DNA from: Corallococcus soli
GTDB lineage: Bacteria; Myxococcota; Myxococcia; Myxococcales; Myxococcaceae
Assembly (NCBI RefSeq): GCF_014930455.1
Contig: NZ_JAAIYO010000001.1
Location: 186,001-250,000 of the forward strand
Reading direction: 5' to 3'
Length of the DNA stretch: 64,000 nt
In this document: piece after piece, positions 32,334-47,405 of the stretch
Numbering within the stretch: the stretch's first letter is position 1
Layout: the number at the start of each line of letters is the position of its first letter
Notes under the pieces: generated by a model
What the model saw: the letters and a program-made list of their open reading frames with translations, nothing else
The model's database searches: none
What the model was told of the DNA's origin: nothing
Program-made: the position numbers and the translations under genes

Positions 32334-32544
32334 GGACGGTTCGCGCGCCTGCCCGCCAGGTCCCCCTCCGTTCGGAGGTCTGGACACATGTTCAGTAACT
32401 CCGGGCACTTGGCGGCTATTTCCCGCCGGTGGGCGGCCCAGGGTGGGGGGCCGGAGGCCGGGGCCCGGCTGGTTGGCGGGCGCGAACGGCCAGGAGGATG
32501 TGCACCTTGGGGCTGCCCTCCCAACGCCCCACCCAAGGTGTGCC

Positions 32545-43739: not shown

Positions 43740-44093
43740 TTACCCCTTCAGTTCGCGCGTCAGCTTCGAGTCCCACGGACACCAGTGGCCGCCAGGGAGG
43801 AACGCGCCGCCGGCTTCGTCCAGGTGGTCCTCGACGTACATCATGTTGGCGTCGCACACCTCGATGGCCATCGAGAAGAACCGGACGGTCGAGGGGTCGA
43901 TGTGGAACGAGAACTTCGGATTGTAGGGCGCGGTCCTCTTGATGATGCGCCCGTGGACGTGAACCTCGTTCTTCTCCTCTCCGGCGAGGATGCGGCGCGC
44001 ATGGGAAATCATCGCCTCGTCCGTCAGCTCAATGACGAATTCGGCCCCAGGCGAGCTGGGCTGGGTGAAGGCGAAGCGGGTGGCGGTTGCCAT
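43740..44093 (-). CDS. BP74-like small protein
   Basis: 117 residues with no signal peptide. It recalls the N-terminal domain of Dictyostelium calmodulin-binding protein BP74: FVIELTDEAMISHARRILAGEEKNEVHVHGRIIKRTAPYNPKFSFHIDP, then FFSMAIEVCDANMMYVEDHLDEAGGAFLPGGHWCPWDSKL. The pattern fits closely but I give it from memory. In bacteria such stand-alone domains have no known role. Its start faces the terminus of the UdgX gene across about 120 bases. Confidence 0.6.
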   Translation of the reverse strand: MATATRFAFTQPSSPGAEFVIELTDEAMISHARRILAGEEKNEVHVHGRIIKRTAPYNPKFSFHIDPSTVRFFSMAIEVCDANMMYVEDHLDEAGGAFLPGGHWCPWDSKLTRELKG

Positions 44094-44216: not shown

Positions 44217-45620
44217 TCACCCGAGCGCACGCAGCGTGCCCGCCACCCGGCGCAGGTCCTCCTCGAAGTGGACGCGGGCCTGGGCCCGCGCCCGCTCGTC
44301 CGGCATGCGCAGGAGCGCCGAGGGGTGGAAGGTCGCCATCCACGCCTTCGCCCAGGGCGTGTCGAAGATCTGCCCCCGGCTCAGGTTGATGCGGAAGCCC
44401 GGCCCGAGGAAGGACTGCGCCGCCGTGGCCCCGAGGCAGAGGATCATCTTCGGCCTCACCTGCGCCACCTCGGCGTCCAGCCACGCCTTGCACGCGAGCA
44501 CCTCCTGCCGCCCGGGCTTCGCGTGCAAACGCTGCTTCTCCTCGCCCGCCACCCACCCGAAGTGCTTCACCGCGTTGGTGAGGTAGAGCTGCCCACGCTC
44601 AAGGCCCACTCCGGCGAGCACCTTGTCGAGCAGCTGGCCCGCCGGACCGACGAAGGGCCTGCCCACCCGGTCCTCCTGGTCTCCCGGTTGCTCACCCACG
44701 ATCATCAGCCGTGCCCCCGCTGGGCCCTCGCCGAACACCGTGCGCGTGGCCCGCTCGTGCAGCGGACAGGCCCGGCAGCCTTGCGCCGCCTGGGCGAGCG
44801 AGGCGAGGTCCCGGTGCTCGGGCAGGAAGCGGCCCGCTTCGGAGAGTTCCAGCTTCGGGCTCACCATGCGCGAGGTGCGCTCGGGCGCCTGCCGCACCAG
44901 CTCTGGAATGAGTCGGGCTTCGGGTAGGGTGGCCCAGTGCTTCTTGGGCATCTCCGCGCGCATGGCCCGCACGTTGAGCCGCGCCGGATTGAAGGTCGAC
45001 GCATAGTACGTCCCCCACATCTCCTCCAGCGCATCCCCGTCGGGGGCATGCGAGCGCGGCACGCCCGGCCCGTACGTGAGTTGCTCCAGGTCCCATGTCA
45101 CGCTCGCGTCCGGCGTGAGGATGCTCCAGCGCATGGAGGGAAAGCGCCGCGCGAAGAAGGGCGCCACGTAGCGCACGATGAGGTGCTCGGGCCGGTGCCA
45201 CGCGATGAAGGACTCCTCGCCCTCACGCTCCACCCGCCGGAAGCGCACGAAGGCCTTCATCTTGTGCGCGTCGCGCTGCACACCCTTGGCCAGCGTGAGC
45301 ACGCGGTACACGTCCGCGTCGCTCTCGACCTCCAACAACTTGCGCTCTCCCCGCGTGAGCCGCCACAGCACCCGGTAGAGCAGCCCCCAGCGCTCGGGCG
45401 AGCGGTGGCAGGCCACCTTCTGAGCCAGCTCCAGGAACGCCGGAGGCACGGACAGCCCCGCTACGGGCGCGCTCGCGGGCACCACGTCCGGTGCGAGCAG
45501 CGAGCCCTGTCCGAGCCCTTCCTCGGTGAACAGCACCTGGTCCGGGGACACGCCCCGGGCGAGCAGTCCGCGCGCCGCCACGCGGAACGAGTCCAGGTCC
45601 GGTCCCACCTCCACCCGCAT
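44217..45620 (-). CDS. udgX: DUF4130-UdgX uracil-DNA glycosylase fusion
   Basis: 467 residues. Residues 1-245 form DUF4130 (the TIGR03915-type region that accompanies the radical SAM partner; RTSRMVSPKLELSE begins the linker). Residues about 275-467 are a family-4-like uracil-DNA glycosylase: CRACPLH near 281 with CxxC for a [4Fe-4S] cluster, uracil-pocket motif GEQPGDQED near 307, and TFHPSALLR near the end. The loop EEKQRLH (His near 366) sits where UdgX proteins have KRRIH, whose His bonds covalently to the abasic product. It overlaps the upstream radical SAM gene by one base, so the two form an operon. Function: trapping or excising uracil in DNA; detail unproven. Confidence 0.9.
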   Translation of the reverse strand: MRVEVGPDLDSFRVAARGLLARGVSPDQVLFTEEGLGQGSLLAPDVVPASAPVAGLSVPPAFLELAQKVACHRSPERWGLLYRVLWRLTRGERKLLEVESDADVYRVLTLAKGVQRDAHKMKAFVRFRRVEREGEESFIAWHRPEHLIVRYVAPFFARRFPSMRWSILTPDASVTWDLEQLTYGPGVPRSHAPDGDALEEMWGTYYASTFNPARLNVRAMRAEMPKKHWATLPEARLIPELVRQAPERTSRMVSPKLELSEAGRFLPEHRDLASLAQAAQGCRACPLHERATRTVFGEGPAGARLMIVGEQPGDQEDRVGRPFVGPAGQLLDKVLAGVGLERGQLYLTNAVKHFGWVAGEEKQRLHAKPGRQEVLACKAWLDAEVAQVRPKMILCLGATAAQSFLGPGFRINLSRGQIFDTPWAKAWMATFHPSALLRMPDERARAQARVHFEEDLRRVAGTLRALG

Positions 45621-46870
45621 CAGAGCTCTCCGGTGAGTGCTTCCTGGGCGGAGGTGAACAGGGAGAGCTGGGTGGCGGGGGGCGTCACCCGCTCGGCGAG
45701 CCGGGGCGAGTCGATGAGCCCCGTGGGCCGGTGGTCCGCCGTCACGATGAAGGGCTTCATGCGCGTGAGGGGCACGCGCAGCCGCGCCAGGTCCGCGAGC
45801 GTGATGCGGTGCCAGCGGCGGATGCGGATGAGCCGGTCCACCGTGCGCACGCCCATGCCCGGCACGCGCAGCAGGGCCTCGCGCGGGGCGCGGTTCACGT
45901 CCATGGGGAACGCCTCACGTCGGCGCAACGCCCACGCGAGCTTCGGGTCCATCTCCAGGGACAGGTCTGGCTGTTCGGGTGGCGCGAGTTCGTCCACGCG
46001 AAAGCCGTAGAAGCGCAGGAGCCAGTCCGCCTGGTACAGCCGGTGCTCGCGCACGAGCGGCGGAGACTTCGCGGGCAGGCGGGCGTCGACGAGGGGGATG
46101 GGGCTGTAGGCCGAGTAGTACACACGCCGCAGCTTGAAGCGCGTGTAGAGGCGGCTCGCGGTGTCGAGGATGGCCGCGTCCGGCGTGGGCGTGGCGCCGA
46201 CGATCATCTGCGTGCTCTGGCCCGCGGGGGCGAACTTCGGCGCCTTGGGGCTCTCCATGCGCTCGGCCTTGGATTGCTCCACCCGGGTGGAGATCTCCTT
46301 CATCGTCCCGCCGGTGACGGCGAAGCTCTTCTCCGGCGCGAGCCTCTTCAGGTCGCTGTCCGTCGGCAGCTCGATGTTGGCGCTCAGCCGGTCCGCGTAC
46401 CGCCCCGCCTTGTCGATGAGCTCCCTGGACGCGCCCGGCACCGCCTTGAGGTGGATGTAGCCCTGGAAGCCGTGCACCTCGCGCAGCGTGCGCGTCACCT
46501 GGATGAGCTGCTCCATCGTGTAGTCCGGGCTCTTGATGACGCCGGAGCTCAGGAACAGGCCTTCGATGTAGTTGCGCTTGTAGAAGTCGAGCGTGAGCTG
46601 CACCACCTCCGCGGGCGTGAAGCGCGCCCGGGCGGTGTCACTGGAGATGCGGTTGATGCAATACTGGCAATCGTAGATGCAGAAGTTGGTGAGCAGGATC
46701 TTGAGCAATGACACACAACGCCCATCCGGCGTGTAGCTGTGACAGATGCCCATGCCCTCGACGCTGCCGAGCCCCTCCTTCCCCGCCTTGCGTTTGCCGC
46801 CGCTGCTCGAGCACGAGGCGTCGTACTTGGCGGCATCAGCGAGGATCTCCAGCTTCTTGCGCACGTCCAT
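45620..46870 (-). CDS. Radical SAM DNA modification/repair protein (TIGR03916-like)
   Basis: 416 residues. The radical SAM motif CIYDCQYC is at C64, C68 and C71; further Cys lie near the N-terminus (ASC at 20, GIC at 43). The C-terminal 100 residues hold a helix-hairpin-helix (VNRAPREALLRVPGMGVRTVDRLIRIRRW) for DNA binding. The pattern fits the putative DNA modification/repair radical SAM family, which is nearly always paired with the DUF4130-UdgX protein that follows here. Substrate and chemistry are unknown. ATG at 46870 was taken as start because it gives the short conserved N-terminus (MDVRKKLEILADAAKYD). Confidence 0.9.
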   Translation of the reverse strand: MDVRKKLEILADAAKYDASCSSSGGKRKAGKEGLGSVEGMGICHSYTPDGRCVSLLKILLTNFCIYDCQYCINRISSDTARARFTPAEVVQLTLDFYKRNYIEGLFLSSGVIKSPDYTMEQLIQVTRTLREVHGFQGYIHLKAVPGASRELIDKAGRYADRLSANIELPTDSDLKRLAPEKSFAVTGGTMKEISTRVEQSKAERMESPKAPKFAPAGQSTQMIVGATPTPDAAILDTASRLYTRFKLRRVYYSAYSPIPLVDARLPAKSPPLVREHRLYQADWLLRFYGFRVDELAPPEQPDLSLEMDPKLAWALRRREAFPMDVNRAPREALLRVPGMGVRTVDRLIRIRRWHRITLADLARLRVPLTRMKPFIVTADHRPTGLIDSPRLAERVTPPATQLSLFTSAQEALTGEL

Positions 46871-47073
46871 GGAGGCAATCCTAGTCACCGCCCCTGACGC
46901 ACGAAGCAGGGAGGGACCCCGGCAAGCAAGGAGACGAGGAGTAGTCCTCTTCGCCTGATGGTTGACCTGGACGACGAGCGTGCCCCTGCATGCTCGACGC
47001 GTCACATCAATGGCTCAATGCGGCACGAGGCTCTGCTGCTCCTCTTTCCGCAACCAAACGCGCGTCGAGCCAT
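46871..47073. other. Intergenic stretch left of the island
   Basis: Between the radical SAM start and the first tRNA/tmRNA-like repeat I see no gene, hairpin or clear promoter. The radical SAM promoter must lie here, and base composition already drops a little to the right. Confidence 0.4.
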
Positions 47074-47104
47074 TGGAGGCGGCGGGAATCGAACCCGCCG
47101 CTCT
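47074..47104 (-). repeat. tRNA/tmRNA 3'-end fragment, left copy
   Basis: On the minus strand this reads as a T-arm and acceptor end: GGCGGGTTCGATTCCCGCC followed by GCCTCCA. The sequence upstream on that strand does not form the rest of a tRNA and lacks the pairing 5' acceptor strand, so this is a fragment; the GCCTCCA end is also typical of tmRNA (ssrA). The + strand copy TGGAGGCGGCGGGAATCGAA matches 25 of 30 positions with 51176-51205, in the same orientation. Phage and island integrases often use such 3' ends as attachment sites. Confidence 0.65.
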
Positions 47105-47249
47105 GAGCTTCTGGCGAGAGCGCTCCGTCTGGGTTGAGCGCAGGTCCCATAGGACTTCCAGGCACGGCATTTTAGAGCGGGCTTGGCGAAGTTCCGTGGT
47201 TGCCCACCGGTAGCGTGTGCCCTGGCGAGGTGTGGCTGGGGAGGGACTG

Positions 47250-47387
47250 GTGAAGGAGCGCGGGTGGGAGTATCGGCGCAGGCGGCCAGAGGGGACGGTG
47301 CTGTATGAGGCGGTGAGGGATAACCTCGCCACGCTGCTGGCGGAGGCAGGCGAGCTGGGGCGCGGAATGCCCCTTAGGTGCCGCTAG
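47250..47387 (+). pseudogene. IS91-family transposase, N-terminal fragment
   Basis: About 45 codons from GTG at 47250: [20 protein letters not shown], then [16 protein letters not shown], ending in a stop after LRCR. This is the N-terminus of an IS91/IS801-type transposase as found in myxobacteria (YRxRxPExTxLYxxVxxxLxxFLAEA). The rest of the gene (catalytic Tyr domain) is gone. The break falls about 10 bases before the CTAGCATGCC element that begins the inserted genes. The C-terminal piece of the same kind of protein lies at 50740. Confidence 0.7.
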
Positions 47388-47405
47388 CATGCCTTTTGGT
47401 TATGC
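47387..47405. promoter_or_regulatory. LysR operator candidate, copy 1
   Basis: GCATGCC-TTTTG-GTTATGC, 19 bases, an imperfect palindrome that overlaps the 5' leader of the LysR gene (8 bases before its ATG). A near copy with equal spacing lies at 50539-50557 upstream of the amidohydrolase. Both are preceded by CTA, so CTAGCATGCC is identical in the two. Confidence 0.6.

Follow-up and report, generated by a model that had tools for sequence, protein, structure and literature searches.

The window analysed here, a stretch of 64,000 nucleotides from Corallococcus soli (Myxococcota; contig NZ_JAAIYO010000001.1, positions 186,001 to 250,000), contains two adjoining minus-strand open reading frames (ORFs), the first for a radical S-adenosylmethionine (radical SAM) protein and the second for a protein in which a DUF4130 domain is fused to a uracil-DNA glycosylase (UDG) domain of the UdgX type. 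Both lie exactly where an earlier note on this DNA had placed them (Table 1). They meet at TGATG, in which the last base of the radical SAM stop codon is the first base of the DUF4130-UdgX start. The fusion proposed in that note is borne out by matches to TIGR03915 (198.4 bits, cut-off 112.25) and then TIGR03914 (269 bits, curated cut-off 189.95) within a single 467-residue protein. The TIGR03915 match spans residues 8-235 and profile positions 6-243 of 243, thus running to the profile end, and the Pfam model of DUF4130 spans residues 75-234. The coupling to a radical SAM protein with a helix-hairpin-helix (HhH) also stands, since the 416-residue partner matches TIGR03916 (575.8 bits, cut-off 343.5), adjoins the TIGR03915 gene with a one-base overlap and carries a CX3CX2C motif and an HhH-like stretch. 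Chance would not produce family matches of this strength. No other NCBIfam model matched this protein, none of the SPL family being returned, and Pfam PF04055 scored 28.8 bits, just below its cut-off of 29.5.

Such a coupling is not unusual: the genes form a named unit in NCBIfam, where TIGR03916 itself is called rSAM_link_UDG, and the earlier literature mentions them. In the accessible text of these sources, the radical SAM/UdgX pair was noted in a 2013 paper (PMC3765255), a COG1573-COG4277 operon is presented as a putative base-excision repair system under LexA control (PMC8565304), and a radical SAM gene of this kind was up-regulated on desiccation in Acinetobacter (2026; PMC13130816). A literature search, with most subscription papers outside its coverage, found no biochemical or genetic study of the radical SAM/DUF4130 unit. 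The window pair is an ordinary member of a widespread two-gene DNA-damage unit already named in NCBIfam. The pair itself being known, what our computations add is the co-occurrence of the two families, their association with LexA boxes, the dispensability of UdgX and the coupled loss of one DUF4130 segment, hereafter the arm.

Table 1. Positions of the two genes, their domains and motifs, and the upstream region in the window
Feature	Coordinates	Strand	Basis or remark
DUF4130-UdgX fusion protein, 467 aa	44217..45620	(-)	TIGR03915 + TIGR03914
UdgX domain, residues 237-459	44244..44912	(-)	TIGR03914
UdgX motif B HPSALLR, residues 432-438	44307..44327	(-)	census
UdgX R-loop KQRLH, residues 362-366 (R107 = Arg364; covalent H109 = His366)	44523..44537	(-)	alignment + census
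UdgX motif A GEQPGDQED, residues 309-317 (E52, Q53, D56, D59 equivalents)	44670..44696	(-)	alignment + census
DUF4130 C-terminal arm, residues 196-236	44913..45035	(-)	conservation; absent in 27/27 radical SAM-less Myxococcota relatives
DUF4130 core, residues 1-195	45036..45620	(-)	Pfam; AlphaFold2 (AF2) model
Radical SAM protein, 416 aa	45620..46870	(-)	TIGR03916 (rSAM_link_UDG)
HhH-like stretch, residues ~322-352	45815..45907	(-)	weak RuvA alignment (E 0.76), short genome matches, sequence inspection
Radical SAM CX3CX2C, Cys64/68/71	46658..46681	(-)	motif at residues 64-71
Region with three further invariant cysteines, Cys20, Cys43, Cys52	46715..46813	(-)	alignment
Upstream region, common to divergent LysR gene	46871..47388	.	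no LexA box recognised

Co-occurrence of the radical SAM and DUF4130 proteins

A scan of genome_contigs with the radical SAM protein returned at least 584 relatives, of which we analysed the best 80, from Myxococcota, Planctomycetes, Verrucomicrobia, Acidobacteria, Proteobacteria and others. A DUF4130 gene is present in 76 of these 80 loci, downstream on the same strand in 75 (59 of them within 60 bp) and on the opposite strand in one (L047). The remaining four (L040, L042, L044 and L050) stop at a contig end before reaching it, two of them showing its first residues. UdgX is fused to DUF4130 in 66 of the 76 loci, nine have DUF4130 alone, and in L101 the gene is cut by the contig end. Seven of the nine genomes with a UdgX-less partner have no UdgX above the cut-off anywhere and two have a separate one, several of the nine being metagenome-assembled genomes that may be incomplete. 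In L063 (Paludisphaera soli) the UdgX motifs have been lost, while the radical SAM and DUF4130 parts match well; its UdgX is probably dead within an otherwise intact unit. Because of these nine partners and the motif-less L063, the UdgX module is, judging from gene content, dispensable, and the core of the unit consists of the radical SAM and DUF4130 proteins.

We found the same association at the level of whole genomes. Among 246 genomes of one alphaproteobacterial order, that of the genome G204 which holds the Sphingomonas soli locus L094, TIGR03915 and TIGR03916 exceed their cut-offs in an identical set of 118 genomes (lists compared). Five more have only short radical SAM matches below the cut-off. 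In three genomes (G389, G434 and G447) the two genes are unlinked: they are about 650 kb apart or else on separate contigs, no closer than 17 kb to a contig end. Inheritance as an operon is therefore insufficient by itself to explain the co-occurrence. Both family models also match in the genome of Caulobacter crescentus (C. vibrioides), which served as a control. The radical SAM and DUF4130 proteins are near-obligate partners.

Matches in viral collections were few. Ten of 50,697 phage records matched the radical SAM protein. In one of them, labelled Acinetobacter phage (L197, CAKLQH020000003.1), the gene after that for the radical SAM protein is annotated as a "probable DNA metabolism protein" and has the size of DUF4130 alone; since these are surrounded by glyQ/glyS and other housekeeping genes, the record is probably chromosomal and its phage label doubtful. 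A second matching record carries no annotation. Two matches in viral_contigs showed no DUF4130 match within the available stretch, and in one of them (L119) the sequence stops partway through the radical SAM gene.

Coupled loss of the radical SAM gene and a DUF4130 segment

The AF2 model of the DUF4130 part (residues 1-236) has a mean predicted local distance difference test score (pLDDT) of 87.5. In an alignment of 75 sequences (74 loci with a single DUF4130 match above 200 bits, plus the window), the arm is the most conserved block of the domain, with a mean modal fraction of 0.73 against 0.34-0.69 elsewhere. TIGR03915 has a match in 44 of 193 Myxococcota genomes. The radical SAM gene adjoins it in 17 of these (with a broken frame in G169), and all 17 proteins retain the arm and the UdgX motifs. 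The other 27 genomes have no radical SAM match beyond an N-terminal stub, and the arm, searched with window residues 196-255 as query, was found in none of their 27 proteins. UdgX motif A is recognisable in four of the 27 (once as GDQPG) and motif B in five, the Arg and His of the loop are kept in four (three by script and a fourth, KRRPH, by alignment), and 22 have none of the three motifs tested.

Of the 15 longer radical SAM-less loci, 14 have one or more flanking frames in common with G156, where the pair is intact, and G170 does not clearly do so; by their flanks, these are mostly the same locus as in G156. In a tree of the DUF4130 core, the intact G156 groups as sister of G152, which lacks the radical SAM gene (support 97/87). 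The tree therefore requires two changes or more, and unless the gene was regained in G156 they are losses. Most simply read, the arm serves the radical SAM partner. The pattern suggests that residues 196-236 tie the two partners together, and we propose the arm as a candidate docking segment.

Three loci (L028, L030 and L031) have the first 29-30 radical SAM residues in one open frame ahead of the DUF4130-UdgX protein, the rest of the gene being deleted.

Sequence features and regulation

The UdgX of Mycobacterium smegmatis (PDB 6ail) aligns to window residues 256-460 with 191 bits, and the loop KQRLH differs from its KRRIH only at the positions of R106 and I108. As claimed in the earlier note, the covalently bonding histidine is kept, His366 corresponding to His109. 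The signature of UdgX, in the accessible text of Aroli et al. (2023; PMC10359453), is Q53 with R107 and H109, present in the window as Q311, R364 and H366. Residues tested in UdgX, according to the available part of Liang et al. (2024; PMC10776899), are E52, Q53, D56, D59, F65, H178, N91, K94, R107 and H109; equivalents of E52, D56, D59, F65, N91, K94 and H178 are all present in the window as well (F65 from the M. smegmatis alignment alone).

We also compared 79 UdgX domains, from the window, 12 of the 17 Myxococcota loci retaining the radical SAM gene and the 66 genome_contigs loci with a UdgX match. Arg107 and His109 are retained in 78, L063 being the sole exception. Position 106 is R in 46, Q in nine, F in six, L in five, K in four and another residue or a gap in nine; position 108 is L in 53, I in 23 and M in two. 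KQRLH itself occurs in nine domains, eight from the window's relatives and one from a planctomycete (L047). Because both positions vary in relatives that keep the catalytic residues, and position 106 does so freely, we reject KQRLH as a special loop, and the meaning that the note had read into it as a variant falls away.

The radical SAM protein has six cysteines in all, each invariant in an alignment of 55 sequences (54 of 81 available relatives plus the window), all of which match TIGR03916. Among solved folds, its AF2 model (mean pLDDT 87) best matches those of HydE, lipoyl synthase and biotin synthase (Z about 16-17; by VIA, about 16.6 over some 220 residues). Many short genome matches were confined to the HhH-like stretch. 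Cys43 and Cys52 are replaced in nine aligned sister proteins from genomes without a TIGR03915 match; in L140, Cys52 is kept and Cys43 is not. It is suggestive only, given the low AF2 confidence in this region (pLDDT 41-61 over residues 21-50), that Cys20, Cys43 and Cys52 may be auxiliary ligands of a second Fe-S site. The Myxococcota sister family (L141-L145 and L151-L154), with 280-317 bits to our model of the radical SAM protein and below the TIGR03916 cut-off, retains the HhH-like end and lacks DUF4130, Cys43 and Cys52.

Evidence of damage regulation comes from the 40 loci that we took as alphaproteobacterial from their titles (L070 being titled only Pseudomonadota). In 37 of them the alphaproteobacterial LexA box GTTC-N7-GTTC, on either strand, lies upstream, no more than 300 bp from where the radical SAM match begins, most often at -26 (L049, L069 and L080 have none). 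A control motif of the same composition was found in 0 of 40, and the rate of the LexA box elsewhere in the loci was 0.011 per 330 bp. A GTTC-N4-GAAC palindrome occurs in four of 11 Verrucomicrobia loci, a count with no control run. The eight gammaproteobacterial loci showed no LexA box with the patterns tried.

With the consensus of Myxococcus xanthus (PMC9705874), the window has 13 matches at up to three mismatches against 20.5 expected, one of them, with three mismatches, in the upstream region. The whole genome has six at up to one mismatch, compared with four for the reversed control, and none of these is at the operon. According to the accessible text of the same transcriptome paper, direct LexA control is shrunken in M. 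xanthus. A palindrome at 32379-32396 of the window resembles the M. xanthus SOS box, with two and three mismatches on the two strands, and is tied to no gene.

The nearest genes encode a SulP-type transporter, an ORF that looks lipoprotein-like by eye and has no family match, a small BP74_N-domain protein directly downstream of the operon (43740-44093(-); Pfam, 166 bits), a divergent LysR regulator and an amidohydrolase. Given what these neighbours are, the functional unit most likely consists of the two genes. The dedicated base-modification pathway that the note had thought possible is unsupported, the nearest genes being those just named and the alphaproteobacterial relatives carrying a LexA box. 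The PADLOC models of known anti-phage defence systems matched none of the three proteins searched, a sigma-70 promoter scan of the upstream region gave nothing, and the window holds no tRNA genes.

Proposed function and comparison with known systems

Our preferred reading, to which we give a probability of about one half, is a radical SAM-DUF4130 complex that is inducible by damage and in which UdgX is an optional module for trapping lesions. The radical SAM protein, with 5'-deoxyadenosyl radical chemistry, an HhH-like DNA-binding stretch and six invariant cysteines, would work with the DUF4130 protein as an obligate pair. In the simplest form they would make up a complex in which residues 196-236 of DUF4130 dock onto or serve the radical SAM enzyme, and the pair would reverse or remodel a damaged base or an abasic site in DNA. 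As an optional recruiting module, the fused UdgX would excise uracil, stay bonded through His366 and mark or shield the site. Computation shows the families, the motifs, the co-occurrence, the LexA boxes of the alphaproteobacteria and the coupled loss; the activity of all three parts, the physical complex, DNA as the radical SAM substrate and the order of events are what we infer here. An unusual lesion as target of the pair, which the earlier note had considered, is possible. An unlikely, more far-reaching version would make the unit an unrecognised class of damage-inducible DNA repair machine, in which the radical SAM enzyme, bearing a second Fe-S site at Cys20/43/52, would be active on DNA only with DUF4130 docked through the arm, and an optional UdgX would bond to the uracil or abasic site, forming the very adduct that the radical enzyme could then reverse or process.

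Several observations speak against a damage-inducible complex of this kind. In G158 the intact radical SAM gene is directly followed by an unrelated frame, and TIGR03915 matches nowhere in that genome; in G064 a divergent radical SAM relative occurs without DUF4130. The window promoter has no LexA box by the M. xanthus consensus, and the only sequence evidence for a DNA substrate comes from the HhH-like stretch and the fused UdgX. All 27 losses fall within two related genera and amount to few independent events. Moreover, 12 of these 27 genomes have a separate short UdgX in frames of 237-277 residues (G023, G035, G056, G124, G135, G136, G140, G142, G143, G147, G152 and G154), so the loss of the fused UdgX motifs may reflect redundancy and not a dependence of UdgX on the radical SAM protein.

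The Myxococcota losses might also be plain pseudogene decay, uninformative on function, which we regard as a real if doubtful possibility. Decay would explain the deletion remnants of both genes in G029, G039 and G044 and of the radical SAM gene in G031, which also count against strict coupling. It would fit, too, the ratios of nonsynonymous to synonymous substitution (dN/dS), from a crude counting method, for the N-terminal half of the UDG domain in nine radical SAM-less pairs (0.10-0.88, with 0.41-0.88 in seven). The same pairs, however, gave 0.18-0.49 for the DUF4130 core and 0-0.45 for the UDG C-terminal half, compared with 0.10-0.28 in six intact and 0.08-0.41 in two mixed pairs, and by these ratios the shortened genes look still constrained. 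Besides, no stop interrupts the open frame of any of the 27 radical SAM-less matches, and the segment always missing is the one that is otherwise most conserved.

Alternatively, the two proteins might be separate, merely co-regulated repair enzymes, UdgX removing uracil, the radical SAM protein dealing with another lesion in the manner of SplB, and DUF4130 serving as linker or DNA-binding part. SOS-type regulation alone could account for the conservation of the operon, standalone UdgX is functional in M. smegmatis (accessible text of PMC10359453), and G158 retains the radical SAM gene alone. We nevertheless hold this to be somewhat unlikely, because co-retention of both families even when unlinked, and one DUF4130 segment having been lost together with the radical SAM gene, argue for a joint function. 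A role of the radical SAM enzyme in the damage response as a modifier of RNA or protein, not of DNA, appears improbable: none of its best solved folds is known to act on DNA, which would favour such a substrate, but the HhH-like stretch, the near-obligate DUF4130 partner and the fusion of the latter to a uracil-DNA enzyme point the other way. A reading that builds on the earlier note, that KQRLH confers a different specificity or chemistry as part of an unusual base-modification pathway, has in its favour the sequence difference itself and nothing more; with both positions varying across relatives that have all the reported catalytic residues, and no modification genes among the nearest neighbours, we consider it very improbable. 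For the radical SAM/DUF4130 unit, which is widespread and damage-linked, the comparison narrows the matter to testable features, namely a segment of 41 residues that is predicted to join the partners, three additional cysteines, and the existence of genomes that have the UdgX module alongside others that lack it.

Likeness to known systems differs from part to part. Foldseek with the DUF4130 model gave no match at E 0.001 (best E 0.1). In a second fold comparison the DHH superfamily (RecJ, PAP phosphatase, Cdc45) came top, with Z 8.8 for PAP phosphatase and 8.3 for RecJ (up to 8.8 over 179 residues, root-mean-square deviation 4.2). These scores are borderline and have no profile support, HHalign against small RecJ, AlaRS and NrnA alignments giving nothing (the AlaRS frames were cut by locus ends); a DHH-type domain is where the fold comparison leans, unproven. 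With HydE, lipoyl synthase and biotin synthase the radical SAM protein has the barrel in common, at 20% identity or less (Foldseek), which implies no common function. With the SplB-like photolyases it shares the radical SAM core and, in the accessible text of PMC3765255 and PMC8565304, the SOS association, whereas the three extra invariant N-terminal cysteines and the C-terminal HhH-like stretch set the window protein apart. The M. smegmatis UdgX (PDB 6ail and others) has the catalytic residues and the R-loop histidine in common with the window domain, which differs by Gln for R106, Leu for I108 and its place in a fusion, the solved M. smegmatis chains being single-domain (205-229 residues). 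The closest likeness is to the TIGR03916/TIGR03915/TIGR03914 unit (COG4277-COG1573): the window is without a recognisable LexA box, but its pair exceeds the curated cut-offs, has the gene order and fusion of most relatives, and differs from the unit in nothing essential.

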